A DNA stretch of 26,613 nucleotides from a virus (IMGVR_UViG_3300011271_000016:1-26613); one strand, 5' to 3'. Positions 5,490-20,062 are shown, counted from the first letter of the stretch. Numbers and translations are program-made. The notes: generated from the sequence alone by a model not told the origin.

Positions 5490-6720
5490 GGCTACCTCGT
5501 GTTTTCTCGAGCGCGCGATTTGCGTCAGCCGCGAACTCAGGATCTCGTTCGAGTCCAAAAACGGTTTCGGCCCCGAGCTTTGTGGCCGCGCGAAGGGCAC
5601 TTCCGCTTCCGCATGTAGGATCGAAGAGTCTGGTTTGGCCATCGACGAGCATTTCGAAGAAGTATTCGAGGGCGGCTTGGGACTTTTCATGGGGATGGAT
5701 CTCTCGTTCAGTAGGCGCGGTGAAAGAATTGTTCTTTACGCGTACGATTTTTCGATCATTACGCCAGCCAAAGAAAGCCATGTCGTAGGTGCGACGTGGC
5801 CGGCGTTGTGGATCGGGTGCTATGCCCTCAGAACCACGTAACCAAATTAGGGGATGCTCGTCGAATTGAAAGCCATCGAGGAGCTTGAGTAGTTCCCATG
5901 TTTGGCAATAGAATGTTGGGCTAAACCAAAAAATCATATGCGCAGACTCAGTACAGAAGTTGTCGAGATGAACTGATAAGGTTTTAAAAAGAGTCCAATA
6001 TATGTCTGGTGAATCATCATAATGTACGTTTAAAGATGAATCTGATTGTCCTTCACTCTTATGTGCATTTATACCGTAAGGGAAGTCACAATGAATGAGA
6101 TTGAACTTTGGGCCATTGTAAGCTGGTGCCCATTCATTGAAGTCAGCGACAACTATTAAATTAGATGATGTATATAGTACGTTTAACGTACTTTGCAGTT
6201 CATCCTGCTTTTGCCGCTCTATCAAGCGCGTAGCTGTATTATAGGCTGTCCTGAATCCGTCCGCTGTAGCGACGCGAGGATTGTTGATAACTTTTTCTAG
6301 CGTTAGGTGATTGGAAACGGCCTGTTTGTTCAAGCCGATGGCGCGGCCAATACTTTCCATATTAATGTCAGGTTCTAAGACACGGCGGAGATTGACGTAT
6401 TTTATGTAGGCGTCATGCTGCTCGCGCCAAGTCATGTCCTTGCGGCGAGTATTCTCTTCAGTCTCGACAAGCTCGCGCTGAAGCGGATCTATCTCATCGT
6501 AGAATTGAAATGAGATATCGGTCCAGCCAAGGCTGCGGCATGCCAAGAGGCGGCGATGACCTGAGACGAGGGCGTGCTCGCGAGTGAGGAGAATTGGATG
6601 AATGAGACCGAGACGGCGAATTGAATCAGCGAGATCATCGATATCGCCGAGTTCCTTTCGCTGGCGTTCATCGATAGTGATGCTGTCGATTGCCGCGGTG
6701 TAGAATATACCGCTAGTCAT
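5458..6720 (-). CDS. ParB-like domain fused to DNA methyltransferase
   Basis: Residues 10-110 form a ParB/Srx N-terminal domain, with IDDLADSIRRLGLIHPILL and the nucleotide-binding-type box SGHRRLLA (53-60). Residues about 122-140 form a helix-turn-helix (SIGRAIGLNKQAVSNHL). The second half is an amino-methyltransferase with catalytic DFPY (212-215; the usual form is DPPY) and SAM-binding FDPTCGSGS near residue 370. Motif IV before motif I is the beta-class order. Such ParB-methylase fusions are known in phages. Their role is usually taken as DNA modification with sequence targeting by the ParB part; this is not proven here. A copy of the GTACGT-N3-ACGTAC palindrome lies inside this gene, between the two domains. 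Confidence 0.88.
   Translation of the reverse strand: MTSGIFYTAAIDSITIDERQRKELGDIDDLADSIRRLGLIHPILLTREHALVSGHRRLLACRSLGWTDISFQFYDEIDPLQRELVETEENTRRKDMTWREQHDAYIKYVNLRRVLEPDINMESIGRAIGLNKQAVSNHLTLEKVINNPRVATADGFRTAYNTATRLIERQKQDELQSTLNVLYTSSNLIVVADFNEWAPAYNGPKFNLIHCDFPYGINAHKSEGQSDSSLNVHYDDSPDIYWTLFKTLSVHLDNFCTESAHMIFWFSPTFYCQTWELLKLLDGFQFDEHPLIWLRGSEGIAPDPQRRPRRTYDMAFFGWRNDRKIVRVKNNSFTAPTEREIHPHEKSQAALEYFFEMLVDGQTRLFDPTCGSGSALRAATKLGAETVFGLERDPEFAADANRALEKTRGSLESSSSSEVC
6177..6191. promoter_or_regulatory. Palindrome GTACGT-TTA-ACGTAC (site 3)
   Basis: This perfect 6-bp-arm palindrome (7-bp arms if the flanking A and T are counted) matches two sites in the intergenic region near 19.5 and 19.96 kb. 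It also shares TATATAGTACGTT (6171-6183) exactly with the reverse strand of the 19.96-kb site. It is inside the ParB-methyltransferase coding region, between the ParB and methylase domains. It could be a binding site for a phage protein. Confidence 0.55.
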
Positions 6721-6941
6721 GTTATTCTAAGATGTGTTATTAAATGTACACAGAAATCGGCATGGCGATGGTCATCTATTCTATATATTGCAAAATCAGT
6801 AATCATTATGATATGGTTACTACGTACTGTTAATGATTCAATTCTTTCAAACTCGTGTGGTAATTTAAATATTGGTTCTAACAGCTTATTTATATCCATA
6901 GTGGGGTCCTTAATATAGCCTAACGCGACCCGGCTTTCCAT
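6717..6941 (-). CDS. Unknown small protein, 74 aa
   Basis: The ATG at 6941 follows AGGAAGGA, and its stop overlaps the ParB-methyltransferase start by 4 bases. An in-frame ATG at 6899 with AAGGA upstream is also possible and would give a 60-residue product. The protein alternates charged and beta-branched residues (TVRSNHIIMITDFAIYRI), suggesting a small beta-rich fold. No family is recognised. Confidence 0.65.
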   Translation of the reverse strand: MESRVALGYIKDPTMDINKLLEPIFKLPHEFERIESLTVRSNHIIMITDFAIYRIDDHRHADFCVHLITHLRIT

Positions 6942-6989
6942 ATCGCGTCCTTCCTTTCAGGCGTCAGCTTTCGCTGATGGGCGGCTATG

Positions 6990-7445
6990 TTAGGCTGCTT
7001 TCGTTGTCGTATCGATTTCGGCACGTAGCCCCATAGTACCATCACGACGCTGGAACGGGCGGTGGGCGATGTGGCCCTTGAACTGTTGGCCGACTGACTC
7101 GGCGATCGCCTGCGTAACGCTCAAGCCACCCTTGACGCCAAGAACGTCTCGCAGGAAATTGCGAATCATCGAGGCCGAATCGGCAGTCATGTAGAACGTC
7201 AGTGACATTTCCTTGCCGCTTTGGAGACCGCCGATTTCATCGAGGGCCGCCCGATCAACATCTTCGAGGGCTTGAATTGGTCGCAGCTTGAACTCCCAAA
7301 ATGGCGTCTGCTTGTTGCTTGATTTGCCGCTTTCGGGCATTCCGTTAATGAGCCAAACGTAGGTGCCAACAGGAAAGGGTTTGGGGTCCTCGATATCGTC
7401 GAGACGCATGTTGGAGATTTCTTCGAAGGAAGTGGGGTTGGGCAT
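6990..7445 (-). CDS. Conserved phage replication-associated protein, possible ssDNA-binding partner
   Basis: I place the start at the ATG at 7445 (MPNPTSFEE) because AAGGA lies upstream; the longer form has none. The 151-residue protein has a central beta-rich part (PFWEFKLRPIQAL) and a long region with GLQSGKEMSLTFYMT. It then has helices with FLRDVLGV and a terminal RRDGTMGLRAEID strand. Genes of this kind often sit beside Sak4-like recombinases in phages, where the partner is an ssDNA-binding protein, so that role is inferred from context. GKSS at about residue 41 is not a P-loop. Confidence 0.7.
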   Translation of the reverse strand: MPNPTSFEEISNMRLDDIEDPKPFPVGTYVWLINGMPESGKSSNKQTPFWEFKLRPIQALEDVDRAALDEIGGLQSGKEMSLTFYMTADSASMIRNFLRDVLGVKGGLSVTQAIAESVGQQFKGHIAHRPFQRRDGTMGLRAEIDTTTKAA

Positions 7446-7566
7446 TACTAGGATTCCTTTATGTGAAGTGGGAAGGTGCCGATCGCGATACAGAGACACA
7501 GCTGGGGAGGGTATCCACCGGCGCTCAGTGTTACAAAGCCACTTACTGAGTTGGCTATCACAAACA
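7446..7566. other. Short intergenic gap, nothing recognised
   Basis: These 121 bases separate the leftward genes at 7567-7875 and 6990-7445. Apart from the AAGGA ribosome site of the downstream gene, I see no convincing promoter, terminator or small ORF with a ribosome site. Confidence 0.4.
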
Positions 7567-7875
7567 CTAAAAGGAGATGTCGTCGCCGTTCTTGGAATTA
7601 TCAGTTATGGCAAGTGGGTCATTCCTTTTATTCCAAGAGTAGCGACGCTGAGTTTCTTCAATTGCAGGACCGAGACGTGCTGAAGTTGAGCTATCTTGAG
7701 TGCCATAACTGCCACAGGATAACACATATGATACTTTTGGATGCCAATCGGCGACGCGGCCACGGCATTCTATGTCCAGACGAAATTCTGCAATATGCAG
7801 TTCATCAAACGCGCGACGAATATCATCTAGAGCATCCATGATATAGGCGTGAAGTTGTTGATAACGATCAGCCAT
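7567..7875 (-). CDS. Unknown small protein, 102 aa
   Basis: The ATG follows GAAAGGAG, and the gene start overlaps the end of the ATPase gene by 8 bases. The N-terminus (RYQQLHAYIMDALDDIRRAFDE) is a charged amphipathic helix. The C-terminal third is polar and likely disordered (RRYSWNKRNDPLAITDNSKNG). No family is recognised. Position between the ATPase and its probable ssDNA-binding partner suggests a recombination/replication accessory. Confidence 0.6.
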   Translation of the reverse strand: MADRYQQLHAYIMDALDDIRRAFDELHIAEFRLDIECRGRVADWHPKVSYVLSCGSYGTQDSSTSARLGPAIEETQRRYSWNKRNDPLAITDNSKNGDDISF

Positions 7876-8683
7876 TGTGTGCTCCTTTCGAGGCTTTGAA
7901 GTAGGTTGCGAGGCCAGTATCCATTGGAAGTTCCGCTGACCACTTCGGATCGAAAGAGTTAGGGTTTTTGAGATCGATCATATTGGTCGAGACTGTACGG
8001 ATAGTCCGGCGTTCGCCTTGCTTAGTTGCTAAAGCGACGGCAGGGAAGTACGTCGGAATCTCAGGGCCGATAGCCGTGCCGACAGCCATTGGAAAGCCTT
8101 TCAACGTTCCATCCCTCTCAATATACTTTATATGAGCTATAACGATTACATTAGCACGAAATGCATCGGAAGTCAATAGGGCGATGCAGTTCATCAATGC
8201 GCGTTGCGCTGTATAGATGATTGCGCGTGGCTCGACGCCCTTAGTAGGGACGCCCTCAGCTATGCCGGCGGCACCCTGCATTCCGCGCGCCCAAAGTTCG
8301 GCGGATAGCGCCATCGTCGTTAGCGAATCGATGACAACAATGGTTTCCTCGCCCCATGTAGCCGGCCGTGATCCATCTTCCCAAGTATCCATTGCGCGTA
8401 GGCCGTCTACGAAAGCCCTGGGCATGCCGTCGCATATCGGGCCGGCTGGAGTGGCGCGCAGCTTGTCGCGGAAAGTCATATATTCGATGTTGTCGAGATA
8501 TTGCGGGCAATCTAGGCGGACCTTGGCGATGAGCGGTGAAAGGAGGTTGTCGTAGTCGTAGACTCGAAGTTTGTAGCCGGCTTGGACGAGGGAGATTAGG
8601 GATGTGGTTTTGCCTGTCGCAGAATCGCCAATATACAAAAGTTTGTTGATTGTAGATGAGCTATGCTCAGATGCTTTTGGCAC
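7868..8683 (-). CDS. RecA-fold ATPase, Sak4-like single-strand annealing recombinase
   Basis: The protein opens with a short tail and then the Walker A GDSATGKT (about 19-26). A Walker B-like strand, ETIVVIDSLTTMA, lies near residue 125, and FRANVIVIAHIKYIE follows in the position of the RecA-core strand after it. This is the pattern of the AAA_24/Sak4 family of phage ATPases used in recombination. The start is GTG at 8683, chosen for its AAAGGAG 7 bases upstream; an in-frame upstream ATG at 8740 would overlap the nuclease gene. The neighbouring nuclease and possible ssDNA-binding protein would complete a recombination module. Confidence 0.8.
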   Translation of the reverse strand: MPKASEHSSSTINKLLYIGDSATGKTTSLISLVQAGYKLRVYDYDNLLSPLIAKVRLDCPQYLDNIEYMTFRDKLRATPAGPICDGMPRAFVDGLRAMDTWEDGSRPATWGEETIVVIDSLTTMALSAELWARGMQGAAGIAEGVPTKGVEPRAIIYTAQRALMNCIALLTSDAFRANVIVIAHIKYIERDGTLKGFPMAVGTAIGPEIPTYFPAVALATKQGERRTIRTVSTNMIDLKNPNSFDPKWSAELPMDTGLATYFKASKGAHNG

Positions 8684-8696
8684 AAGTTTGCTCCTT

Positions 8697-9637
8697 TCAG
8701 CGCACTTCGAGCGGATTCCATATCCGTTTCTCATAGCCACTAGTCAAAAAATCCTCGCGAACCTGCGGCGACTTCGAGCACACTTCAAGGAATGGACAGC
8801 CACCGTACTTTTGGCAGGCTGAGTCATTCATCGGCCAGCCCTGTTCGGCCGCCTGCCATATCATTTTTATATGATATTCAGCATCGTGCAGCCATTCAGC
8901 CGACTGTTCGGGCGTGCGGAAAGTAAAACCGCGTTCAAAGCGGGTGAAGCCGACGGCGATTTGGGCCGCGTCTATCATTACGCCCTTGACTGGCGTTTTC
9001 CACACCACGTCGGCGGCGATCGCGTAGAGAGACATTTGATTGTCGGGGTTGTATCGCTTGAAGTAGTAGCCGCCGAGAGTGGATCCGGTTGTTTTCTGGT
9101 CTTGCACGTAGATTCCGTCGGCGAACTCGACGAGGCGATCTAGATGGCCGCATAGCCAAATTTCATCCGTCAATTGAAAACGGAACGATAGCTCGACAGC
9201 GGCGCTTCCGTCGGCGAGATGGACCGTTTTGCACGGGTCGTTTTCGCCGAATTGTCGAGATACCAAATGATGGAGCGGATCAGGTTTTCACGGGTCTTGT
9301 AGCGCGCGGCGCCGGGTAGGTCGCGGAGTTCTTCAGCATTGAGCATTGGCTTATCGAGATCATAGTTCCAAGACGCCTTCAATGTTTGAAGGATTACGTT
9401 GTAGAGGGCATCTCGATGGCTGAGGCCGTTAGGCTCGGCGCGGAGTTTGTGATAGGTTTCGAGAGCCTTGGCATAGAAGCCGCCAAAGGTTAGATGGACG
9501 TTCTCGCCTTTCTGGCGGTAGCCAAGGATTTGCTGATAGTAATATTTTCGGGCGCAATCCTTAGCGGGGCCTAGCGAAGATGAGTCCCATATCCATTGAC
9601 GGCCGTCAAGGAGATAGGGTGACTCAGTCGTTGTCAT
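8697..9637 (-). pseudogene. PD-(D/E)XK nuclease, Cas4/RecB-like, split by a one-base frameshift
   Basis: Two ORFs in different frames join into one protein. The N-terminal part (from the ATG at 9637, coupled ATGA to the upstream gene) carries SSLGPAKDCARKYYYQ, with the first Cys. The C-terminal part carries the catalytic GHLDRLVEF and VQDQKTT (Asp...Asp-x-Lys), and a cysteine cluster C-x5-C-x5-C (CQKYGGCPFLEVC) like the 4Fe-4S site of Cas4 nucleases. The frames meet near 9250. Adding one C (GACCAATTC instead of GACAATTC) would restore YLDQFGENDP. Intact, it would be a 5' or 3' exonuclease for recombination with the Sak4-like ATPase. The indel may be real or a sequencing error; no slippery heptamer is obvious. 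Confidence 0.75.
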
Positions 9638-9822
9638 AGTAACGCCATACGTCTGTGCCAATCATCTAATCTACCAGACCACAACTTTCCGTTGGCTGCA
9701 CCTATATAAACGACAGTACGAGGATATTTTTCTCGACTTCCGTCATCATTTGTCAAGAATAGTACTGTATATACCCTACCACTACTATGTTTCCATATAG
9801 ATCCTGGCGTTGGGTCAGTCAT
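9634..9822 (-). CDS. Small DUF1653-like protein, 62 aa
   Basis: The sequence GSIWKHSSGRVYTVLFLTN followed by TVVYIG and GKLWSGRLDDWH matches the DUF1653-type pattern, a small beta-barrel-like domain frequent in phages. It begins inside the previous gene's stop (ATGA) and ends by overlapping the nuclease start by 4 bases, so it is tightly coupled. Function is unknown. Confidence 0.75.
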   Translation of the reverse strand: MTDPTPGSIWKHSSGRVYTVLFLTNDDGSREKYPRTVVYIGAANGKLWSGRLDDWHRRMALL

Positions 9823-9995
9823 AGCAACCCCAAATCGGCAAGGTCAACTGGCTGCTTAGTTGCCGTTGGCGCTTTTCCAGTGGCGACAAAAAGCCGCCGC
9901 TTCTCTTGATATTCGGCGATGATCTGTTCGGTATCCTGTTCGCTATACTTTAGCGGATGCCTTGAGAACAGTTCGGCTAGGGTTGTTTCGCTCAT
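9819..9995 (-). CDS. Small protein ending in DLADLGLL, 58 aa
   Basis: The ATG at 9995 follows TAAGGAG, and the gene ends in an ATGA overlap with the next. Most of it is one predicted charged helix (SEQDTEQIIAEYQEKRRLF), then a flexible Lys/Thr/Pro linker, and a terminal VDLADLGLL. The last eight residues are identical to those of the unrelated protein at 14306-14548, although the codons differ at 9 of 24 bases. The tail may be a short binding motif. The fold resembles tiny phage proteins with a helix followed by a linker; no function is known to me. Confidence 0.75.
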   Translation of the reverse strand: MSETTLAELFSRHPLKYSEQDTEQIIAEYQEKRRLFVATGKAPTATKQPVDLADLGLL

Positions 9996-10152
9996 CTTGA
10001 GTGCTCCTTATTTTTAGTTCGACGGCTTCACAGTGTTTACGGACGAGTTCACGAATGACATAGTTTGGAGAAATGTTAGTATAAATGCTTTGGAGGCGGG
10101 CGAAATCACCAGCGTAAAGGAGGATATGATGGCCTTTGAGTTTATCCGACAT
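9943..10152 (-). CDS. Small ribbon-helix-helix-like protein
   Basis: The sequence HHILLYAGDFARLQSIYTN followed by SPNYVIRELVRKHCE has the strand-helix-helix layout of Arc/MetJ-type DNA-binding proteins. The ATG overlaps the end of the previous gene, with no separate ribosome site. The frame runs 53 bases into the next gene, which is unusual. Removing one A from the run of five at 10002-10006 would end the protein at VELK just before the next ribosome site, so an indel is possible here. Confidence 0.6.
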   Translation of the reverse strand: MSDKLKGHHILLYAGDFARLQSIYTNISPNYVIRELVRKHCEAVELKIRSTQDERNNPSRTVLKASAKV

Positions 10153-10327
10153 TTTGTGGATCAATCGAATCATCCAGATCATTCTCATCCATTGGCGGCG
10201 CTGGTAATCGCAGCCAATGTGTAGCTATTCCGCCATCTGGGCAGTACAAGACACCTTCTTCCATAAAAACACGAACATAATTGCCGTGTTGCGGCGCTGT
10301 CGCGATTGGCTGCCATTCATTGGACAT
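10142..10327 (-). CDS. DUF551-like small protein, 61 aa
   Basis: The opening WQPIATAPQHGNYVRVF matches the W-x-PI-x-TAP signature of DUF551 and related phage proteins. A beta-rich middle and an acidic tail (DENDLDDSIDP) follow. It overlaps both neighbours by about 11 bases, indicating coupled translation. Function is unknown. Confidence 0.75.
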   Translation of the reverse strand: MSNEWQPIATAPQHGNYVRVFMEEGVLYCPDGGIATHWLRLPAPPMDENDLDDSIDPQNVG

Positions 10328-10559
10328 TTGGCACTATCCACACTTCAGTTTCGGTAGTAACAATCTTCATTAAGTTATAATCGTCATAAGCGAGTTCGCG
10401 GCGGGCTGCATAGAGCTTAGCAGCCAGACGCTTGGGATATTGCGATTCGATCTTTATGCCTGTAGGCGCCTTCATTGCGCGATCCCACAAAGCGGCAAGC
10501 TCAGGTAGGTCCGATTTAATCACGGAACCTTTTGGCGGACGGCCGCGGCCTCTTAACAT
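10317..10559 (-). CDS. Small protein with N-terminal AT-hook, 80 aa
   Basis: It begins MLRGRGRPPKG, an AT-hook (RGRP core) that would bind the minor groove of A/T-rich DNA. A helical Ala/Arg-rich part (RLAAKLYAARRELAYDDYN) and a beta-like end (TETEVWIVP) follow. The N-terminal 11 codons lie in a 35-bp sequence repeated 248 bases upstream, where it starts a second small gene. The ATG overlaps the stop of the preceding mini-gene (TAATG). Confidence 0.7.
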   Translation of the reverse strand: MLRGRGRPPKGSVIKSDLPELAALWDRAMKAPTGIKIESQYPKRLAAKLYAARRELAYDDYNLMKIVTTETEVWIVPNVQ

Positions 10560-10562
10560 TAG
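10528..10562. repeat. 35-bp direct repeat, copy A
   Basis: This copy matches 10776-10810 with one mismatch (A at 10555, G at 10803). Both copies cover a gene start and encode the AT-hook M-(L/S)-RGRGRPPKG on the minus strand. Confidence 0.9.
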
Positions 10563-10624
10563 AAAAACGCTGCATATAATGGCGCGATTCCCATCAGCGC
10601 CATAAGAATAGTATTAACAGTCAT
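10559..10624 (-). CDS. Possible 21-residue hydrophobic peptide
   Basis: The mini-ORF encodes MTVNTILMALMGIAPLYAAFF, almost entirely hydrophobic and long enough for one membrane pass. Its stop overlaps the start of the AT-hook gene as TAATG, a pattern used repeatedly in this operon. The ribosome site is weak (GTGAAG). It could be a coupling leader or a real membrane micropeptide. Confidence 0.35.
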   Translation of the reverse strand: MTVNTILMALMGIAPLYAAFF

Positions 10625-10678
10625 TGACTTCACCGCTTTTTTGCCGAAGCCCGTTAGGGGACGTTGATCGTTTCGTCA

Positions 10679-10807
10679 TTACGAACAATGCCCCAAAACC
10701 CACAAAAATAAAAGCACAATCCACGCCGTTACGACCCCACCCTTCACGGCCCGCCACGCTGACTCCGGTGTCATGCCTTTTGGCGGACGGCCGCGGCCTC
10801 TTGACAT
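10679..10807 (-). CDS. Small single-pass membrane protein with AT-hook-like start, 42 aa
   Basis: The start overlaps the previous stop (TAATG). It begins MSRGRGRPPKG, the same as the neighbouring AT-hook gene because of a 35-bp duplication. It continues through a short charged part into a membrane segment (VVTAWIVLLFLWVLG). Arg/Lys before the segment and few charges after it predict an N-in topology. The AT-hook may be an accident of the duplication rather than useful here. Confidence 0.5.
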   Translation of the reverse strand: MSRGRGRPPKGMTPESAWRAVKGGVVTAWIVLLFLWVLGHCS

Positions 10808-10810
10808 TAG
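10776..10810. repeat. 35-bp direct repeat, copy B
   Basis: This is the second copy of the AT-hook-encoding repeat (see 10528-10562), 34 of 35 bases identical. It also spans a stop/start junction (TAATG on the minus strand). Confidence 0.9.
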
Positions 10811-10959
10811 CGTTTCTTTTTCTTGAGTATGCCAGTTCGCGCATCGCTTTTATTAAACTCTTTAGCGACGGCTTGCGGCACGCCAACACGCTTTGCGAAT
10901 TTAGGGTCATGCGAGGCGGCAGCCATGAGACGCGCTTGTTTAGGACTCTTTGATGGCAT
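10807..10959 (-). CDS. Small conserved phage protein, 50 aa (MPSKSPKQARLMAAA type)
   Basis: The gene follows a strong GGAGG ribosome site. The product has the pattern SPKQARLMAAASHDPKFAKR, then VPQAVAKEFNKSD and a Lys-rich end (GILKKKKR). I recall this as a widespread phage mini-protein with no assigned function. The high Lys/Arg content fits nucleic-acid or virion association. Confidence 0.8.
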   Translation of the reverse strand: MPSKSPKQARLMAAASHDPKFAKRVGVPQAVAKEFNKSDARTGILKKKKR

Positions 10960-10984
10960 CTTTTTCCTCCATCAGATTGAAGTC

Positions 10985-11012
10985 GGGGGCGGCCTGTCGG
11001 GAAACCGCCCCC
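10985..11012. terminator. GC-rich hairpin, 8-bp stem
   Basis: The stem is GGGGGCGG / CCGCCCCC with a 12-base loop, in the gap between leftward genes at 11074 and 10959. On the minus strand no T-run follows, so it is not a classic intrinsic terminator. It may be an attenuator or RNA-processing site. A second, 6-bp hairpin (GCGCTG/CAGCGC) lies just beside it at about 11020-11044. Confidence 0.5.
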
Positions 11013-11073
11013 GCTTCTCACAGCGCTGAAAGGAGCCTAACAGCGCCGCTCCCCGCTTTTATATCACGGGGGA

Positions 11074-11580
11074 TTAGAGTCCGACTGCAGCCAGTGTATC
11101 TAGGCCAGCCTTTTCACGATCCTGCAGCGCCCGACGCGCCCGACGTGCATAGTCATCATGGCGGGCCTCAAGCAGCTTCCCTGCGGCTTCGACCAACTGC
11201 TCGCCCTTGAGCTTCTCGCCATGCTTAGCAAAGAATGCAGCCGAGATGTCTTCGCGAGCGAGCTTGTTCATTTCGCGTTCGACAGGATCGACGATGCGGG
11301 GGCCGCGAGGGCCGCCAGCCTTGCGCTCGCCGAATTTGTACGATTCAGCATAGGCCGTAACTTCACTCTGCAAGGTCTGGACCTGCTCGGCGCTGAGTTC
11401 GGTTGCACCGTTCAACGTCTTTTTCACGCGGGCGGCGCAGTTGTTGCGGATGTTTTCAAGGGCAGTCTGGCGAAGGGCATGGACTTCGCCTTCATCTTGG
11501 AGAGTGTAGCCAACGGCATAGCGGGCGAGCACGCCATCGGGAACCTCGAACTTGTGTCCTTGAATGGTAAGGTTAGACAT
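11074..11580 (-). CDS. Unknown abundant-type small protein, 168 aa, paralog-like to 17902-18444
   Basis: I chose the ATG at 11580 (MSNLTIQGHKF), which has AGGAGA upstream and follows a good promoter. The protein is helical and charged, with SYKFGERKAGGPRGPRIVD and DPVEREMNKLAREDI. The DPVE-x-E-x2-K-x-A-x3-I pattern also occurs in the protein at 17902-18444, suggesting distant relatedness. It has no catalytic motif. Having its own promoter suggests high early expression, perhaps as a DNA-binding or structural accessory; this is inference. Confidence 0.75.
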   Translation of the reverse strand: MSNLTIQGHKFEVPDGVLARYAVGYTLQDEGEVHALRQTALENIRNNCAARVKKTLNGATELSAEQVQTLQSEVTAYAESYKFGERKAGGPRGPRIVDPVEREMNKLAREDISAAFFAKHGEKLKGEQLVEAAGKLLEARHDDYARRARRALQDREKAGLDTLAAVGL

Positions 11581-11623
11581 TGGAAAATCTCCTGTGTGAC
11601 GTTGGAATTTCAACGGTATTCGC

Positions 11624-11653
11624 ATTATATCATGATGGACATGGACACGTCAA
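11624..11653 (-). promoter_or_regulatory. Sigma70-type promoter for 11074-11580
   Basis: The -35 is TTGACG (11648-11653) and the -10 is TATAAT (11624-11629), with 18-base spacing, reading leftward. The -10 is followed by GCGA, as in the promoter near 17.05 kb (both read TATAATGCGA). A short hairpin (CGTTG...CAACG) lies in the leader before the ribosome site. Confidence 0.75.
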
Positions 11654-11661
11654 TGGTTGCG

Positions 11662-13253: not shown

Positions 13254-13255
13254 TG

Positions 13256-13732: not shown

Positions 13733-13744
13733 TATCTTGTCTTT

Positions 13745-13990: not shown

Positions 13991-14030
13991 TTGTAGGCTC
14001 CTATACACCTGAAAAACTCCGGTGCGCGAG

Positions 14031-14288: not shown

Positions 14289-14305
14289 GACGAAATTTCC
14301 TTTTT

Positions 14306-14548: not shown

Positions 14549-14726
14549 GGTGCGCCTCCATCAAATGCTCTCTGTAAGCAAACAGTTCATTTAAAACATT
14601 AGGCTCAAGAGCAATAAAATTGTTCTCGGATATTCCATCATTTATCCATAACCAGATGTTATACCCATCATACCCTGCATAAACTGCATCCCCAAGATAG
14701 ATTTTATCTTTTAAGTCTACGGACAT
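14535..14726 (-). CDS. Small conserved phage protein (YLGDAVYAGYDGYNIWL type), 63 aa
   Basis: The ATG at 14726 follows GGAGGG. The sequence IYLGDAVYAGYDGYNIWLW followed by NNFIALEPNVLNEL is a pattern I recall in many phage mini-proteins. It suggests a small beta-sheet plus helix. Function is unknown. It overlaps both neighbours slightly, consistent with an operon. Confidence 0.8.
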   Translation of the reverse strand: MSVDLKDKIYLGDAVYAGYDGYNIWLWINDGISENNFIALEPNVLNELFAYREHLMEAHRVDR

Positions 14727-15211
14727 GGCGACCCTCCAATGAATTGACAGTATGGCACTCGCCAATCAGGTGCCATGAACATGGCCTGGCCTTCAGCAAG
14801 CGACATCGTATGATGTTTGCAAACCGCTTCCCACACAAACAATTCGAGCTTGTCCTTGAGCTTGTAGTGCCAAACCGTTTCGTCTGGGCCAGGCTGACAC
14901 CAAAGATTGTCTATGTCGTCGGCCCCGCCAAGGGCGAGCATCAAGCGATGATCGATCTCGCCACATTGGCGGGCGCCATAACGCTGACGTACCTCGGCTT
15001 TCATCTCTGATGTGGTGACGCGGTGCCGCTTGCTGTAGGAAAGGCCATTGACGATTCCGCAGACTTCAGCCTGGTCGGTTGACGCAATGACGCCTGGAGT
15101 TAGGCCAGGATCTGGCAAGACGGCGATTTGTGGATCGGCGATGGCAAAGGCGCCGCACAGGCCGGCGAGGATCAGGCCGGCGATAAAGCTGTCACGTTTA
15201 GGTTGGATCAT
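14717..15211 (-). CDS. Exported HNH-type nuclease-like protein
   Basis: The start (ATG at 15211, AGGAGA upstream) gives a signal-peptide-like N-terminus (SFIAGLILAGLCGAFA). The core reads GEIDHRLMLALGGADDIDN, with LWCQPG after it and a later KDKLELFVWEAVC. This resembles secreted HNH-fold nucleases with the pattern E-x-DH-x-x-P-LELGG-x2-x-x-NLWP and a KD-x-LE helix. The DH and the N are in the right places; the Pro of the canonical form is Met here. It could degrade DNA in the periplasm or exclude other phages; this is inference. Confidence 0.7.
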   Translation of the reverse strand: MIQPKRDSFIAGLILAGLCGAFAIADPQIAVLPDPGLTPGVIASTDQAEVCGIVNGLSYSKRHRVTTSEMKAEVRQRYGARQCGEIDHRLMLALGGADDIDNLWCQPGPDETVWHYKLKDKLELFVWEAVCKHHTMSLAEGQAMFMAPDWRVPYCQFIGGSPCP

Positions 15212-15917
15212 AAGGATTCTCCTGTGGCTTGACGAGAGCACGGATCGCGTCACAGATGCAGAGCGCGTTATCGATCGCCCCCGCGCGGTGATTCATGCCC
15301 GCCGCGAACGCTTCCGTCGTGTTGTTGCGGTCACCGCTTGCGGGATGGTTGGCATACCGCTCTGCTACTTGCGCGGCTTCCTCGATCGCCGCAGAGCGGG
15401 CAATGCGGGCGATGGCTTGACGCTCTGCGAGCGTGGTTCTGTACACTGCGCGTGCGTCGCGCCAAATCTGGTGACGTTCATGCATCTGAAAATCTCGTTC
15501 GTCCGCGCGGACCTCGCGCTCGGCCTGCTCGATGGCGCAGGCGTTACGTTCGACGAGTTTATTGTAGTCTCGCCGCCATAAGATCAGGCCAGGATCTTCA
15601 ATGTTGTCCCCAGTACATGACCGCTGATGTATCAGCGGTTCACATGCTGCCGCTGCCCGCTCCCTCGCCGAGGCGCTGGGCGCGTCCGAGCAATAAGGAC
15701 ACGGACGCCCGGCTTCGTGATTATCCTGATTAGGGCAAATGGGCGGGGCTATCAGACGATAGGCGACGATGTCATATGGACTCCCTTCGTGCTTCCAATT
15801 CCATGCCGTAGACGAGGTCAATGGCGCTCCCGTTCCACCGTCACGTAGACGGTATTCGAACAGTTTGCCCTTCGGAACCGGACATTCACCTCCGGCCCAA
15901 TCGATCCACCCGTCCAT
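15198..15917 (-). CDS. Conserved phage hypothetical protein, 239 aa
   Basis: The N-terminal 60 residues (WIDWAGGECPVPKGKLFEYR, then TAWNWKH and PYDIVAYRLI) match a domain common in phage accessory proteins. A C-x...C-x2-C segment follows (ICPNQDN...PCPYC). The C-terminal half is a long charged helix ending in an AAIEEAAQVAERYANHP repeat-like segment of the kind seen in other phage proteins. It starts after GAGAGGGG. Function is unknown. Confidence 0.75.
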   Translation of the reverse strand: MDGWIDWAGGECPVPKGKLFEYRLRDGGTGAPLTSSTAWNWKHEGSPYDIVAYRLIAPPICPNQDNHEAGRPCPYCSDAPSASARERAAAACEPLIHQRSCTGDNIEDPGLILWRRDYNKLVERNACAIEQAEREVRADERDFQMHERHQIWRDARAVYRTTLAERQAIARIARSAAIEEAAQVAERYANHPASGDRNNTTEAFAAGMNHRAGAIDNALCICDAIRALVKPQENPYDPT

Positions 15918-16031
15918 TATTTTCCCCTCTCGGTTTGAAGTGCCACACCGTGGTGAAATCCGGCGAGGTAAGATGTAGACCTCGCGGACCTGTAGTAGTG
16001 CAGTCGAGACTGCGAGCCGCGACGATTGCTG

Positions 16032-16319
16032 CTATCGCGTGGCTGCATACGCGATCAGCGGCCAAATGAGCCCGAGCACATAGGGCAGGGCGGCGAAGGT
16101 AAAAAGACATCCGCCGAGCACAGCAACAAACCAGCCGCCGATATGCTGCGCTCCGAATGGGCGGCGTTTCAGGCCGCGATTAGAGAGATTCATCGCAGCG
16201 AGGAAAATCACCAAGCCGCCTAGCGCGAGATATGGGCTGTGCAGGACAGGACCGCCAAGCGCCTCAATTGGATCACAGGAATAGGGGCATGCATTAATCG
16301 GCTTCCAAATGCGTTCCAT
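16032..16319 (-). CDS. Small integral membrane protein, 95 aa
   Basis: Three hydrophobic stretches are visible: YLALGGLVIFLAAMN, GGWFVAVLGGCLFTFAAL and PYVLGLIWPLIAYAA. Positive charges (NRGLKRRP) lie between the first and second. It could be holin-like or a membrane accessory protein, but the position in the early cluster, far from the lysis genes, argues against calling it a holin. A 112-base gap follows before the next gene. Confidence 0.6.
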   Translation of the reverse strand: MERIWKPINACPYSCDPIEALGGPVLHSPYLALGGLVIFLAAMNLSNRGLKRRPFGAQHIGGWFVAVLGGCLFTFAALPYVLGLIWPLIAYAATR

Positions 16320-16420
16320 TCATTTATTACCACGATCACGAATAAGCAAATAGATAAACATCACGAATACTATGCTGGCTAAAAAGATTGAAAGTAAATG
16401 AGCAATTATTGCTCCGTGCA
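16320..16420 (-). pseudogene. Broken small membrane protein (one-base indel)
   Basis: A strong ribosome site (GGAGG, then CGCACC) leads to an ATG, but the frame closes after 13 codons (MHGAIIAHLLSIF). Adding one T to the run of four near 16381-16384 would continue as LASIVFVMFIYLLIRD and end at 16320. That would give a 33-residue single-pass membrane protein overlapping nothing and ending just before the next start. This looks like a homopolymer indel, real or artefactual. Confidence 0.5.
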
Positions 16421-16473
16421 TGGTGCGCCTCCAATCAACTGAACATTTCACGTAGCGGCAGTCTTCCGTTTGG

Positions 16474-16842
16474 TCATAATCCTGCTATTGCTAAGAGTTC
16501 GTTGGCTTCTTTGAGCCGGTCGCGTTTGGCAGAGGCGCGTAGCAATCGATTCCGTTCACGTTCGCGCCGTTCTTTGATTTGTTCGATGGTTGGTGCTGGT
16601 CGGCCGCTGCGCACAACATCGGCGATCTTATCAATGTCGTATTGAACGGGCGCTGCATTGGTGCCGGGCCGCATATGATCGCGGCTGCACGCTAGGGCGG
16701 CATCGCAGCGCGGCTTTAGAATGTTGACTAGCATGGTGACGTTTACAGGAATGTTGACGCGTTGTCGGTCAGGGAAGCGGATGGCGATCTCGTCGCCTTC
16801 GAGCCATATGGCGATGGCATAGGGCGGGCAATCTATTTCCAT
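16474..16842 (-). CDS. Unknown protein with charged C-terminal helix, 122 aa
   Basis: I chose the ATG at 16842 because it follows the previous stop by one base and has GGAAAGA upstream; the frame is open to 16920. The N-terminal half is beta-like (YAIAIWLEGDEIAIRF, then RVNIPVNV). The C-terminal half is a strongly charged helix (KERRERERNRLLRASAKRD). No family is recognised. Confidence 0.65.
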   Translation of the reverse strand: MEIDCPPYAIAIWLEGDEIAIRFPDRQRVNIPVNVTMLVNILKPRCDAALACSRDHMRPGTNAAPVQYDIDKIADVVRSGRPAPTIEQIKERRERERNRLLRASAKRDRLKEANELLAIAGL

Positions 16843-16843
16843 G

Positions 16844-17017
16844 TTACGGAGTCTTTCCGCCAGCATAGGAACCGCGCATCCAAGCAAAGGGATGTAACCA
16901 ATTTGACGGCAAAAAAACAAGCATGATTAATACTATCATCCAATCGTGGATGTTGTTAATGCTACAGCCATAATAGCTGCATTCGTAAGCGACGTTGTAG
17001 GTTTCTTTGTATGTCAT
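16844..17017 (-). CDS. Small membrane protein, 57 aa
   Basis: The ATG at 17017 (MTYKETYN) sits 9 bases after AAGGAG, which itself lies within the longer frame from 17035, so 17017 is preferred. A hydrophobic stretch (WMIVLIMLVFLPSNWL) gives one membrane segment. It is the first gene after a perfect promoter at 17044-17072. The function is unknown. A run of seven T makes the later frame worth checking. Confidence 0.55.
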   Translation of the reverse strand: MTYKETYNVAYECSYYGCSINNIHDWMIVLIMLVFLPSNWLHPFAWMRGSYAGGKTP

Positions 17018-17043
17018 TTCGTCTAGCTCCTTCATTTTGTCGC

Positions 17044-17072
17044 ATTATACCATATTATTTGGTAAATGTCAA
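17044..17072 (-). promoter_or_regulatory. Consensus sigma70 promoter (TTGACA-N17-TATAAT)
   Basis: Both boxes match the consensus exactly with the ideal 17-base spacing: TTGACA at 17067-17072 and TATAAT at 17044-17049, reading leftward. Transcription should begin near 17036, about 20 bases before the ATG at 17017. The -35 directly abuts a perfect hairpin (17071-17107), so repression or insulation of the upstream operon is plausible. Confidence 0.9.
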
Positions 17073-17107
17073 TGCGACCATGCCACTGTATCTAGCATGG
17101 TCGCATT
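17071..17107. terminator. Perfect 12-bp hairpin next to the promoter
   Basis: The arms AATGCGACCATG and CATGGTCGCATT are exact complements around a 13-base loop. On the minus strand it lies 6 bases after the stop of 17113-17265, as expected of a terminator, but no T-tract follows. The arm contains TGCGAC, also present after the neighbouring -10 and in the 18746-18762 palindrome, so it could be an operator. Confidence 0.6.
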
Positions 17108-17112
17108 GATGC

Positions 17113-17265
17113 TTAAGATGATCTATATTTCCTTCCAATAGGACGACGTAATCTCGTTCTTGGTAATATGCGTCTCATAAGCATATAAACTGTTTGCATT
17201 AAATCCTCATATTCTCTCATTTCTTGGTATTCTTTGGCTAGTTGCATTATATCAACATTTGTCAT
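17113..17265 (-). CDS. Small basic helical protein, 50 aa
   Basis: The ATG follows AGGAGA and overlaps the previous gene by 4 bases. The product is Met- and Arg-rich (MQTVYMLMRRI and RTRLRRPIGRKYRSS) with an N-terminal charged helix. It is A/T-rich relative to its neighbours. No family is recognised. Confidence 0.6.
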   Translation of the reverse strand: MTNVDIMQLAKEYQEMREYEDLMQTVYMLMRRILPRTRLRRPIGRKYRSS

Positions 17266-17402
17266 TCGTCGTTCTCCTGCATAGCGCGTAGGGTCTCGGC
17301 CGCGCGTTCGATGATATCGAGTAGCTCGTCGTCGTCTTCGTCAGGCGGAATGTCGTTAATGACATTGACGAACCATTCGCGGGTATGCGGGTTTGTCATC
17401 AT
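17262..17402 (-). CDS. Small acidic protein, 46 aa
   Basis: Start overlaps the previous stop as ATGA, with AAAGG upstream. The sequence NPHTREWFVNVINDIPPDED is followed by an acidic run and an amphipathic helix (LLDIIERAAETLRAMQ). No family is recognised. The overlaps at both ends support it being translated. Confidence 0.6.
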   Translation of the reverse strand: MMTNPHTREWFVNVINDIPPDEDDDELLDIIERAAETLRAMQENDE

Positions 17403-17623
17403 GACACCTTTAGGTTGCCGGCGCGATCACGACGCACTGCCGCGAACCAAGAACGCTTTGGATGGTTGGTGACGGTGATGCTGCAAATGTCTGTTACAAC
17501 ATCGCACACATAGCCTGGGCATGGATTAAAGGTGCTAGGATCGGCGACATATACGAGTCCGGCTTTGGCGATCACCGCTTCACGAAAGGCTTTCTTAGTT
17601 GGATATGGAACTATGTGAGTCAT
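17399..17623 (-). CDS. Small conserved phage protein (VTNHPKRSWFAAV type), 74 aa
   Basis: The gene follows AAGGACC. The C-terminal ITVTNHPKRSWFAAVRRDR is a pattern I recall from many phage and prophage hypothetical proteins. The N-terminal part is helical with a GLVYVADPS turn. Function is unknown. Confidence 0.75.
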   Translation of the reverse strand: MTHIVPYPTKKAFREAVIAKAGLVYVADPSTFNPCPGYVCDVVTDICSITVTNHPKRSWFAAVRRDRAGNLKVS

Positions 17624-17840
17624 GATGGGTCCTTATAGATGGCGTGGTTGCCCGAAGGCGATGGCAACTAAATTCAGGGAAGCTTTCTCCTTTCGGATGT
17701 TTCGGGCTTCTTGAGACAACGCAAGTATGACCGGATCGGCGCATGTTATCTCGGGTTTCTTTTGCTTGCTCCCGCGAAGTGAAATAGCCATGGTCAGGGT
17801 ACCAAGAAGTTCCTTTGTTGTCTTTTACAACGTATGACAT
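17595..17840 (-). CDS. Unknown small protein, 81 aa, with doubtful C-terminus
   Basis: The ATG at 17840 has AAGGAG upstream, so translation surely starts here. The first half (MSYVVKDNKGTSWYPDHGYF, then TSREQAKETRDNMRR) looks like a real protein. The last 30 residues are His/Ser-rich and run 29 bases into the next gene. A second frame from an ATG at 17791 (MAISLRGSKQKK, ending QPRHL at 17633) looks natural in its later half and ends just before the next ribosome site. Either the genes overlap or one base is missing here. Confidence 0.5.
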   Translation of the reverse strand: MSYVVKDNKGTSWYPDHGYFTSREQAKETRDNMRRSGHTCVVSRSPKHPKGESFPEFSCHRLRATTPSIRTHHDSHSSISN

Positions 17841-17855
17841 TTTGTTGGTCTCCTT

Positions 17856-17894
17856 GCAGCCGGCTGGCCTAAGGTTTGCTAACCAGCCGGCTGC
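17856..17894. repeat. 12-bp-stem hairpin; its central 30 bases recur inverted at 20574-20603
   Basis: The arms GCAGCCGGCTGG and CCAGCCGGCTGC pair perfectly around a 15-base loop, in the gap between leftward genes at 17902 and 17840. Positions 17857-17886 recur on the other strand at 20574-20603 with a single mismatch. A terminator, processing site or protein-binding site is possible; conservation of the loop argues against a simple terminator. Confidence 0.8.
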
Positions 17895-17901
17895 TCGCTT
17901 G

Positions 17902-18444
17902 TTAGATCCCGCTATCGGCTAGTTCGCTTGCACTCGCCGTGCGTTCGCGCACGATGCGCTCGGCCGACGCCCGCACCGATTTGCCCTTGGGGCCGGCCAT
18001 GTAGAGGCCGACTGCCTCGGCGATGTCGGCTACCGGCGCGAGCCTGCGGTCCGCCCGCGATGTATTGATCTGATGCAAGAGGCGCGGCACAAGACCCTTG
18101 ATGTCCTTCGGTACCGGTATCGATGCGAGCATGGCATGGATGTTGGCGACCGCGATCTTGCGAACTTCGGCCTCGACAGGATCGGCGGGTTCGGCGGTGG
18201 CGCGATGGGCGCGAAGTTCGCCGGCGTACATGTTGGCGAGGCGCTTCTCGGCTAAGGCGAGAATCTCCGCGTTGGGCAGCGGATCGCCGGCCTCGGTGGT
18301 CTTGTTGGCGGCCGCATCGTTTAGACATTGGCGCAAGCCATAGTCGTAGATGTAGGATTGTACGGTCTCGTTGAACCGCGTGGTATCAACGGTTAGCACG
18401 CCGTATTTGCCAGCTCGACCGATGTTAACGTTGATGGTAGGCAT
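17902..18444 (-). CDS. Unknown helical protein, 180 aa, paralog-like to 11074-11580
   Basis: I chose the ATG at 18444 (MPTINVNIGRAGKYGV) because AAGGAG precedes it. After a short beta opening the protein is Ala/Arg-rich helix, with TAEPADPVEAEVRKIAVANI sharing the DPVE-x-E-x2-K-x-A pattern with the 11-kb protein. Both have a YG/Y-rich segment soon after the N-terminus and a similar length. The function is unknown. The gene is noticeably more G/C-rich than its neighbours. Confidence 0.75.
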   Translation of the reverse strand: MPTINVNIGRAGKYGVLTVDTTRFNETVQSYIYDYGLRQCLNDAAANKTTEAGDPLPNAEILALAEKRLANMYAGELRAHRATAEPADPVEAEVRKIAVANIHAMLASIPVPKDIKGLVPRLLHQINTSRADRRLAPVADIAEAVGLYMAGPKGKSVRASAERIVRERTASASELADSGI

Positions 18445-18479
18445 TGGTTGGCTCCTTGTTGGCGCATGATTGCACCGTG

Positions 18480-18519
18480 TTGCGCCCGCTGTTGTTGGGT
18501 TTTTTGTAGGCGGGCGCAA
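18480..18519. terminator. 10-bp perfect hairpin between leftward genes
   Basis: TTGCGCCCGC and GCGGGCGCAA are exact complements with a 20-base loop. It lies between the stop at 18535 and the ATG at 18444. On the minus strand no T-run follows. The plus strand has a TTTTTT run only inside the loop, so a classic intrinsic terminator is unlikely. Confidence 0.6.
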
Positions 18520-18534
18520 TGGCGCTACAATCAA

Positions 18535-18687
18535 TTAATAACCGGGTTTCAGGATTTGCTGGGCCTCTAACATGCGGACCAATCTGGCTGCCCATTGCTC
18601 TGCCATGTCGGGCTTGCCGCAGTCTCGATAGGCAATCGCTTTGGCTAGGGCTTGGCTGATCTCGCTTCGCGTCGCTCTGTCGGTCAT
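18535..18687 (-). CDS. Small helical protein, 50 aa
   Basis: The ATG follows AAAGGAGCCTAACA, the leader shared with the SF1 helicase gene. The product is two amphipathic helices (TRSEISQALAKAIAYRDCGK and MAEQWAARLVRMLEAQQIL). It resembles tiny phage proteins of the same helix-turn-helix hairpin shape. No function is known. Confidence 0.65.
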   Translation of the reverse strand: MTDRATRSEISQALAKAIAYRDCGKPDMAEQWAARLVRMLEAQQILKPGY

Positions 18688-18745
18688 TGTTAGGCTCCTT
18701 TATTGATCGAATGTCTACAATGACGCTATGATATGTATATGTCCA

Positions 18746-18762
18746 TGCGACATAGTGTCGCA
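18746..18762. promoter_or_regulatory. Palindrome TGCGACA-TAG-TGTCGCA
   Basis: The 7-bp arms are perfect. It lies 3 bases beyond the stop of the first leftward gene (18765-19193) and about 60 bases before the next ATG. The TGCGAC half-site also occurs in the hairpin and promoter near 17.05 kb. It may be an operator or a terminator stem. Confidence 0.55.
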
Positions 18763-18764
18763 CC

Positions 18765-19193
18765 CTATTCGTCGTCCAGCTTTAATGGTTTGTCGGGCGC
18801 GAATGGATTGGGATCATCAACAACCGGCTGCTGCGGCGTTGGCGGCATGCCATGGTTACGAAGCCAACGTTCTTGTTCGGCGGCTTCCCATCGGCGGAAA
18901 TCCTCCGCGAGTGAATTACCGTTAGCATCGTATAGCTGCGATGGATCAATGGTTGGTCGCGGTGTGATGATGATCTTGTTGCCCCGCCGCAGAAACACGT
19001 AGGCGTCGAGCAACGCTATTCCATCATTATTTTCCCGCACGATCTTGCGGTATGTGTTGAGCCGCTGCAGCATATTGACGCAAGAATTGGGATTTAGACA
19101 GTCTATCTCACCGTGACCGCGCTCGAGGACGTATTGTAGGATGTTCTTGCAATCGGCGAAGCGGACGTCAGGGTTTATTTTGGGGCGCGCCAT
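18765..19193 (-). CDS. First gene of the leftward operon, unknown, 142 aa
   Basis: I chose the ATG at 19193 (MARPKINPDVRF), which has AGGAAC upstream and lies just below a good promoter. The N-terminal half is mixed helix with two Cys (FADCKNILQYV and DCLNPNSC). The middle is beta-like (GNKIIITPRP), and the end is Pro/Asp-rich and acidic (PFAPDKPLKLDDE). As the first early gene it could be a regulator or host-takeover factor; no DNA-binding motif is clear. Confidence 0.7.
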   Translation of the reverse strand: MARPKINPDVRFADCKNILQYVLERGHGEIDCLNPNSCVNMLQRLNTYRKIVRENNDGIALLDAYVFLRRGNKIIITPRPTIDPSQLYDANGNSLAEDFRRWEAAEQERWLRNHGMPPTPQQPVVDDPNPFAPDKPLKLDDE

Positions 19194-19225
19194 TATGATT
19201 GTTCCTATCATTGCCATTATTACCC

Positions 19226-19255
19226 ATTATGCGCACATTATTTGGGTTTTGTCAA
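19226..19255 (-). promoter_or_regulatory. Leftward early promoter (TTGACA-N18-CATAAT)
   Basis: TTGACA (19250-19255) and CATAAT (19226-19231) are spaced by 18 bases on the minus strand. This places the transcription start about 25 bases before the ATG at 19193. It is the only good promoter ahead of the whole leftward block. The initially transcribed region has repeated CATTAT/ATAATG words. Confidence 0.8.
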
Positions 19256-19277
19256 TACTATTGTACAGGCGCGTGCG

Positions 19278-19297
19278 GTCCTGAATAGTCCTGAATA
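19278..19297. repeat. Two tandem 10-bp repeats (GTCCTGAATA)
   Basis: GTCCTGAATA is repeated exactly twice in tandem, followed by GT. Ten-base spacing would put protein sites on the same face of the helix. It lies just upstream of the leftward promoter and 22 bases from the inverted-repeat cluster. Confidence 0.8.
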
Positions 19298-19319
19298 GTT
19301 CGGCGGTGTGTGACTAAGG

Positions 19320-19489
19320 TTTAGTAACGTTTCATAACGTTAGAGCGTCTGGTTAAATGGAATCGCGGCCGTGGCCCTTCTTTTAAATCTATAGTAGAAA
19401 AAAAAAAAATTAATAATTATTAACATACTTTAGGGTAGGGTCTGGGTTCCGTGTAATGAGACATACTAACGTTACTAAACGTTACTAAA
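19320..19489. other. Origin-like region: 24-bp inverted repeat around an A/T tract
   Basis: Positions 19320-19343 and 19466-19489 are inverted repeats (22 of 24 bases identical). Each is made of two units of ACGTTACTAA or a close variant, in opposite orientation on the two sides. Between them, 19381-19430 is almost pure A/T with a run of eleven A, about 37 bases from each arm. Iteron-like sites around an easily melted tract are typical of replication origins, and the region also lies at the switch between divergent transcription blocks. Function is inferred from layout only; no DnaA box was recognised. Confidence 0.6.
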
Positions 19490-19532
19490 GCTACTCAGGC
19501 GAGGCAGCCCTACACAGCTCGACGATATGTAT

Positions 19533-19553
19533 GTGGTACGTTCGACGTACCAC
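19533..19553. promoter_or_regulatory. Palindrome with core GTACGT-TCG-ACGTAC (site 1)
   Basis: The arms extend to 9 bp (GTGGTACGT / ACGTACCAC). The core at 19536-19550 matches the sites at 19960-19974 and 6177-6191. The upstream flank TATGTG resembles the TATATA flank of the other two. A dimeric phage regulator or a ParB-type protein could bind here. Confidence 0.7.
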
Positions 19554-19739
19554 CATTCACCGCCGCCCGCCATTAAATCGAATACCGCCCGCGCCGCCGC
19601 ACGTACGCGCGACTAACGACACCGGCTGGTACCCCACTAGCCGGCCGTCCATCATGTCACCCACGGCCCGCCCCGTGGCCCGCAACCGCTATACATAAGA
19701 GCTGTGCTCCACAGCGGCGCGGCAAAAGGCGATTTCGCT
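19554..19739. other. Structured non-coding stretch, possible small RNA
   Basis: No ORF with a ribosome site is visible. Two clean hairpins lie here: CCGGCT...AGCCGG (19622-19644) and GCTGTG-CTC-CACAGC (19701-19715). A stronger one follows at 19740. With a palindromic regulatory site upstream and a terminator-like hairpin at the end, a rightward non-coding RNA of about 200 bases is possible. Packaging or origin structure is an alternative. Confidence 0.3.
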
Positions 19740-19773
19740 GGAGGGGGTGGGCCGATCGACGACCACCCCCTCC
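19740..19773 (+). terminator. Terminator-like hairpin, perfect 11-bp stem
   Basis: GGAGGGGGTGG and CCACCCCCTCC pair exactly around a 12-base loop. The plus strand continues GCAAATTTT, a weak T-run, so rightward termination fits better than leftward (which would read into GCGAAATC). Confidence 0.6.
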
Positions 19774-20062
19774 GCAAATTTTGCACAGTCAAACATTTAA
19801 TGTACATACTTTCCCTTGATTTTGCCTAAAACTGAGGCATTTCATAGCAGCTATGCCAGTTTGTGATGTTTAGCGTGATATTTGCAACAGTGTGGCGCCA
19901 GGACAACATGCGCCGGGCGCATAGCACGGCCGGCCGCCCCCACAAAAATGCATAGCTCGGTACGTCCAACGTACTATATATGCAGTTAAATGTATATGCC
20001 CGGATCGATCCGGTTGACATTGGCGTTTATCGCGTGTACGGTTGCGACGGAAGGAAAAGGCC
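19774..20062. other. Non-coding leader before the rightward genes
   Basis: This stretch contains an imperfect hairpin (AACT..GGCAT/ATGCCAGTT near 19830-19862), a GC hairpin near 19893-19914 (GGCGC/GCGCC), palindrome site 2, and a TTGACA at 20014-20019. I found no strong -10 for that TTGACA, and the implied start would fall very close to the ribosome site, so a promoter there is doubtful. TATATA at 19975-19980 beside palindrome 2 is another candidate -10. Open frames on the minus strand here lack ribosome sites and look like chance. Confidence 0.4.
19960..19974. promoter_or_regulatory. Palindrome GTACGT-CCA-ACGTAC (site 2)
   Basis: Perfect 6-bp arms. On the reverse strand it shares TATATAGTACGTT with site 3 inside the ParB-methyltransferase gene. 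It lies about 90 bases before the first rightward gene and beside a TATATA box, so it may control rightward transcription. Confidence 0.65.

Follow-up and report, generated by a model that had tools for sequence, protein, structure and literature searches.

The three copies of the palindrome GTACGT-N3-ACGTAC found in a 26.6-kb viral contig (the whole of which was analysed and is called the window here) are, as judged from comparison of sequences, probably the cognate parS/NBS/OB-like sites of the ParB-methyltransferase (ParB-MTase) fusion protein encoded by the same phage. The window covers part of the genome of a tailed phage, with early genes for a primase/helicase, a DNA polymerase, a UDG-exonuclease, the ParB-MTase, an AAA/Sak4-like ATPase, a nuclease and a UvrD-like helicase on the minus strand, and late genes starting with a putative terS on the plus strand. 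Between them is a divergent region of about 0.85 kb, which has the minus-strand early genes on one side and the plus-strand terS on the other (Table 1). About half of the early proteins in the window are without assignment.

The initial annotation had considered the triplicate palindrome unlikely to arise by chance, and this holds: all three copies are exact at their positions (Table 1), and 100 dinucleotide-preserving shuffles did not contain a single one. It is the only family with three members among the 121 perfect palindromes with 6-bp arms in the window (spacers 0-11), and allowing up to two mismatches gave a single extra match, which overlaps site B. The sequence TATATAGTACGTT, reported to be common to two of the sites, is indeed present in both site A and site C (with C read on the minus strand), and is a piece of a longer half-site consisting of 8 outer and 8 inner nucleotides on each side of one central base. 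In the ParB-MTase gene, site A falls between the parts for the HTH and the methylase (residues about 177-181), where its codons adjoin the low-confidence linker of the predicted structure. Site C is found approximately 40 bp upstream of the -35 of the predicted late promoter, and a TTGACA ahead of terS can also be read from the sequences of the relatives G001 and G002. The left outer arm of site B (GATATGTAT) equals the outer-arm consensus of the relative G017 (two bases further out).

Table 1. Location of the palindromic sites, the ParB-MTase gene and associated features in the window.
Feature	Position	Strand	Basis
Gene for the 420-aa ParB-MTase fusion, predicted to bind the sites	5458..6720	-	Pfam, PHROG, profile, AF2, Foldseek
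Beta-class amino-methyltransferase domain, residues about 189-420	5461..6156	-	Motifs DFPYG and DPTCGSG kept
Site A, 37-bp palindromic site in ParB-MTase gene, centre 6184, core 6177-6191	6166..6202	.	Exact motif; place kept in relatives
HTH recognition helix, residues about 131-142, NKQAVSNHLTLE	6295..6330	-	AF2 model helix 132-142
ParB N-terminal (NTP-binding fold) domain, residues about 8-108	6397..6699	-	GxRR and ENxxR boxes kept
Early/late divergent intergenic region with sites B and C	19218..20062	.	ORF map; same layout in relatives
Predicted early promoter TTGACA-N18-CATAAT	19226..19255	-	Read from sequence
Site B, centre 19543, core 19536-19550	19525..19561	.	Exact motif
Site C, centre 19967, core 19960-19974	19949..19985	.	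Exact motif
Predicted late promoter TTGACA-N17-TACGGT, ahead of terS (ATG at 20063)	20014..20042	+	Read from sequence

The ParB-MTase is predicted to be a member of the ParB family, having a ParB N-terminal fold with both conserved boxes and a central HTH, and has the features of a beta-class DNA amino-methyltransferase, with motif IV followed by AdoMet motif I in an MTase fold. Pfam matches to ParB_N and N6_N4_Mtase are both under the curated cut-off (ParB_N just below, E 1.3e-4), and the PHROG families matched are ParB and methyltransferase. With an alignment profile, the solved structure best matched by the ParB half (residues 5-193) was Noc (7ng0, E 4e-20), with E-values from 4e-20 to 3e-14 for Noc/Spo0J/ParB structures and a weaker match to KorB (8qa8, E 0.0008), while residues 217-417 matched DpnA-like MTases. 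The AF2 model (pLDDT 86.4) is confident except for the interdomain linker and one loop, and has Foldseek matches to M.BceJIV, M1.HpyAVI, Noc and ParB. In this model the central HTH consists of helices 121-128 and 132-142, within the residues matching Noc, and in the N-terminal domain the columns of G54, R57, E89, N90 and R93 are invariant in 32 homologues.

The initial annotation proposed a scan of related phages for the motif. The literal motif was absent from the relatives searched (14 records), even with one mismatch, but the closest relatives have lineage-specific palindromes at the corresponding position of the gene. The absence of the literal motif, if taken alone, would point to a private or chance repeat. 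The nearest ParB-MTase relatives (50-56% identity) have other palindromes at nt about 527-553 of the gene, with a second copy elsewhere. The palindrome in G001 is GGTTGAY / GGTTG-N5-CAACC, which in the copy at 4770 is part of a nearly perfect palindrome of 43 bp, while G002, G003 and G004 have ATGGAC-N-GTCCAT at the place of site A in the gene, and G047 has TTCGCG-N-CGCGAA at nt 547 of the ParB-MTase gene. The geometry common to the nearest relatives is one of 8 outer and 8 inner nucleotides about a single central base, and the outer arm is RTGTRYAT-like. Looking for one fixed outer-arm pattern in the relatives proved too rigid, giving one doubtful match, and was rejected. Across the phages, each half-site has two blocks, the inner at about offsets 1-8 and the outer at 9-17.

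Phages with ParB-MTase relatives were then searched de novo for 37-bp palindromes recurring in a genome. This gave lineage-specific dispersed palindromes in about 21 genomes of a first set, and most examined phages with the fusion have their own set of 2-9 dispersed palindromes. There are nine sites in the Desulfofustis phage LS06-2018-MD01 (TTGCTATGTCCCAA-n-TTGGGACATAGCAA), eight in ctMlz233, six in G017 and five each in G018, G030, G031 and G033. A held-out set of 25 further genomes with the gene, found via their helicase, was scored in the same way with an added filter against duplicated flanks; site sets were found in 14/25, with scores up to 89 vs shuffle maxima of 65-70, and the genome-wide search gave no site set in the other 11. 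Looking at the gene surroundings and at single palindromes adds G058 and L054 to the phages with sites at the gene. No sites were found in any of nine related phages lacking the ParB-MTase gene (two held-out and seven others), with three of these seven having terminal or tandem repeats only. High pair scores in G008, G059 and some other genomes likewise came from terminal or tandem repeats and were not counted. In total the catalogue holds about 131 sites in 35 genomes, and as with parS, NBS and OB sites these are palindromes present in few copies. A palindrome scan of the ParB-MTase genes alone gave no signal, and the signal is in the shared palindrome rather than in palindromicity. Over the full 37-bp arms the sites of the window are below the pair-score threshold of the de novo search, because their outer arms are weak; the place of the window in the site family is based on its exact inner core, the position in the gene typical of its clade, and the outer-arm match of site B.

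Co-variation between site blocks and protein parts was tested in 30 genomes, with DNA-polymerase identity as control for relatedness. With polymerase identity accounted for, genomes with similar recognition helices tend to have similar inner arms (r=0.27, p=0.0003), similarity of the outer arms goes with that of the ParB N-terminal domain (ParB-N; r=0.30, p=0.0007), and the crossed pairings (inner arm with ParB-N, outer arm with helix) were null in the same 30 genomes. Inner arms do not follow polymerase identity itself (r=-0.08), and the association of the outer arm with ParB-N persists after correction for polymerase and MTase identity. Both associations hold without close pairs and without the distant outgroup, with r about 0.4 each in a filtered set of 20 genomes. 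In a sliding scan along the protein, the inner arm peaked at residues 131-141, corresponding to the recognition helix, with a family-wise p of only 0.063, while the peak for the outer arm (family-wise p 0.021) was split between the MTase motif IV window 209-219 (r=0.357) and ParB-N windows 23-47 (r up to 0.354). The co-variation of helix and arm was not significant in the first 18 genomes (r=0.07, p=0.22) and became clear only after the held-out genomes were added, and hence comes from a second look with more data rather than from one test planned in advance. For G032 and L047, which have SK-type helices, TTTCG arms had been predicted informally, and were not confirmed. Of the readings offered by the initial annotation, the one of a parS-like target of the ParB domain is supported by these results, since the palindromes track the recognition helix and ParB-N of the same protein, rather than the methylase domain or general relatedness, and since the closest relatives hold substitute palindromes at the same place in the gene.

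The sites are enriched between genes. With a crude ORF caller, 56/111 sites in 30 genomes were intergenic vs 7.3 expected, and in four genomes, including the window, a site is inside the ParB-MTase gene. In G056, G060 and G061 there is a site 25-29 bp upstream of the ParB-MTase start, and a gene-centred search placed one 25-35 bp upstream in G058; overall, a site within 60 bp upstream was found for 3/30 ParB-MTase genes vs 33/1685 other genes (p=0.023), a modest enrichment. The largest gaps between sites are below those of random placement (combined p 0.0025, 12 genomes), with even spacing individually significant in two genomes only, the Desulfofustis phage (0.009) and ctMlz233 (0.033).

The location of sites B and C just upstream of terS is what could be expected of terminase (pac/cos) recognition or packaging sites, but in related phages up to nine sites per genome are dispersed over early and late regions, and the clade of the window has one within the ParB-MTase gene, making a role in packaging highly improbable. 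Intergenic palindromes could also fold in RNA, and act as hairpins, terminators or processing signals; however, the sites are conserved as DNA and not as RNA hairpins. Complementarity of the arms within a site (11.7/18) is not above the identity between sites of the same genome (12.1/18), there is no excess of G-U pairs among mismatched pairs (76/427, at chance), conservation peaks at offsets 3-7 and then around 10-15 from the centre, a T-run is not consistently present and the exact core in the window occurs in a coding region, so that an RNA role is extremely improbable. Another option of the initial annotation, that the palindromes are what the MTase domain methylates and not what the ParB part binds, is likewise very unlikely. 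The fusion does contain an intact beta-class MTase domain, and the outer-arm scan also peaks at its motif IV window, but given ParB-N and polymerase the outer arm does not track the MTase domain as a whole (r=-0.11, p=0.89), and a target of 33-37 bp at 2-9 copies per genome would be unusual for beta-class amino-methyltransferases. Finally, the sites could be operators of another phage-encoded regulator co-evolving with the lineage, as divergent early/late control regions typically hold operators, and the unassigned early proteins could include such a regulator. This is unlikely, since the inner arms track the recognition helix and not polymerase identity, the outer arms track ParB-N also after the polymerase and MTase corrections, and such sites are missing from the nine phages without the ParB-MTase.

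We infer from these sequence comparisons that the ParB-MTase binds the sites. A protein dimer would read the 33-37-bp palindrome. Its HTH recognition helix would be responsible for the inner block, which differs by lineage, and its ParB N-terminal domain, or a surface co-varying with that domain, for the outer block. A few copies of the site are scattered over each phage genome, often between genes; in some lineages a copy is within the ParB-MTase gene or 25-35 bp ahead of the gene start. By analogy with Noc and KorB, the protein may load at these sites as an NTP-dependent (probably CTP) clamp and spread along the DNA, and so deliver the methylase domain to the phage genome, or organise or regulate that genome, in cis; a recent report on phage ParB fusions states that nucleotide specificity is not reliably predictable from sequence or AlphaFold3 (PMC12704722). 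A tentative version of this reading is that a ParB-type sliding clamp carrying a DNA methyltransferase loads at dispersed, lineage-private sites on a phage genome and spreads, so that only DNA with the phage's own sites is marked or coated in cis. An alternative that we regard as equally tentative keeps the same protein and sites, but the main task would be to repress transcription of phage operons as well as of the ParB-MTase gene itself, as in KorB-like global regulation, with the methylase being secondary; it concerns function and not the binder, and its likelihood overlaps with that of the preferred reading. KorB is a ParB-family clamp which silences from distal operators (PMC11790492), and the intergenic half of the sites, the sites upstream of the gene start in G056, G060, G061 and G058, and the flanking of the predicted early and late promoters by sites B and C all agree with such regulation. 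On the other hand, promoter-like sequence is only slightly enriched near the sites (41% vs 29% of random positions), most sites of the Desulfofustis phage occupy the gap from a stop codon to the following gene, with no promoter evident there, and the clade of the window has its site buried in coding sequence.

The predicted ParB-MTase sites share features with, and differ from, those of several known systems. They resemble the parS sites of ParABS systems in being palindromic sites at which a ParB protein would nucleate, and in some bacteria parS is within the parB gene. However, no ParA (PF13614) was found in 17 + 9 phage records, the window itself being a fragment, and a ParABS partition system was rejected on this ground; the half-sites, moreover, have two blocks and are lineage-specific whereas parS is near-invariant. 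The sole PF13614 match was in G046, which is a bacterial MAG. A tyrosine integrase was also absent from the phages searched, and with neither a ParA-type ATPase nor an integrase, partition of a prophage is unlikely. The phage-plasmid N15 similarly has several inverted-repeat ParB-family sites scattered over its genome, but is a plasmid prophage with a ParA-type partner, whereas the present phages are without ParA and integrase. Noc of Bacillus combines, like the ParB-MTase, a ParB-family N domain with an HTH, and is loaded as a clamp by CTP at 16-bp NBS sites scattered over the chromosome (PMC8429893). In the phage protein a methyltransferase takes the place of the C-terminal part and membrane binding is not indicated, and its predicted sites are longer than NBS, have two blocks per half, are few per genome and change in sequence by lineage. 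KorB of plasmid RK2 is also a ParB-family clamp with several operators, near or far from promoters, but lacks a methylase, and OB is 16 bp long (PMC11790492). Phage ParB-N6_N4 methyltransferase fusions with the same domain architecture have been described as frequent in phages, with enrichment in prophage regions; their role is given there as unknown, anti-defence or phage-host interaction being a suggestion (Kaljevic et al. 2025, PMC12704722). The part of that paper available gives no DNA target, which is predicted in the present work, and the open-access literature searched contained no report of DNA sites for phage ParB-MTase fusions. In view of the prophage enrichment described there vs the lack of integrase in our phages, the two sets may represent different subgroups.

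The catalogue provides predicted DNA targets for the ParB-MTase fusions of dozens of phages, a poorly understood family, and assigns a probable reader to each block of the site, with the address differing between related phages in step with the protein. With these predicted sites, binding, clamp loading, spreading and cis-methylation become testable using short DNA duplexes, and the outcome may be phage DNA methylation, genome organisation or gene silencing. If the sliding clamp does carry its methylase in cis from such sites, it would represent a device for self-versus-other marking, with an address code that diversifies fast between related phages. Loading of the ParB-MTase at its predicted sites would add to the known uses of the ParB clamp principle, which are segregation, nucleoid occlusion and the silencing of plasmid genes, a use in the infection cycle of phages that apparently do not integrate.

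The DNA polymerase gene is overlapped at its end by the gene for a putative second methyltransferase, and the separate coding of the polymerase domain and the uracil-DNA-glycosylase-like/exonuclease protein recurs in relatives. When compared by coordinates, both parts of the PD-(D/E)XK nuclease lie within a single frame in two related genomes (G001 and G008), unlike the apparently split arrangement in the window, for which a frameshift or a sequencing error is a possible explanation. By eye, the two early proteins lacking a family match seem to bear a distant mutual resemblance.

Further features of the window
Feature	Position	Strand	Remarks
Putative DNA methyltransferase, second in window	1534-2100	minus	PHROG 799
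Uracil-DNA-glycosylase-like + exonuclease protein and polymerase domain, separately encoded	3873-4949 and 2066-3682	minus	
PD-(D/E)XK nuclease	8697-9266 + 9170-9661	minus	apparently two overlapping frames
Two early proteins	11074-11625 and 17902-18534	minus	no family match
Inverted repeat	19317-19492		46 nt, 78% complementary

Strong palindromes resembling hairpins occur in the related genomes L070 (at ~5779) and G027 (at 3170 and 9877), in some cases with a T-run after them; they look like terminators and were left out of the counts of sites, i.e. the dispersed palindromes predicted to be ParB-methyltransferase targets. The inverted repeat of the window is composed of TAACGTT/AACGTTA units with an A-rich stretch between, forming a second palindrome family distinct from the GTACGT sites, and may act in control or as an origin of replication.
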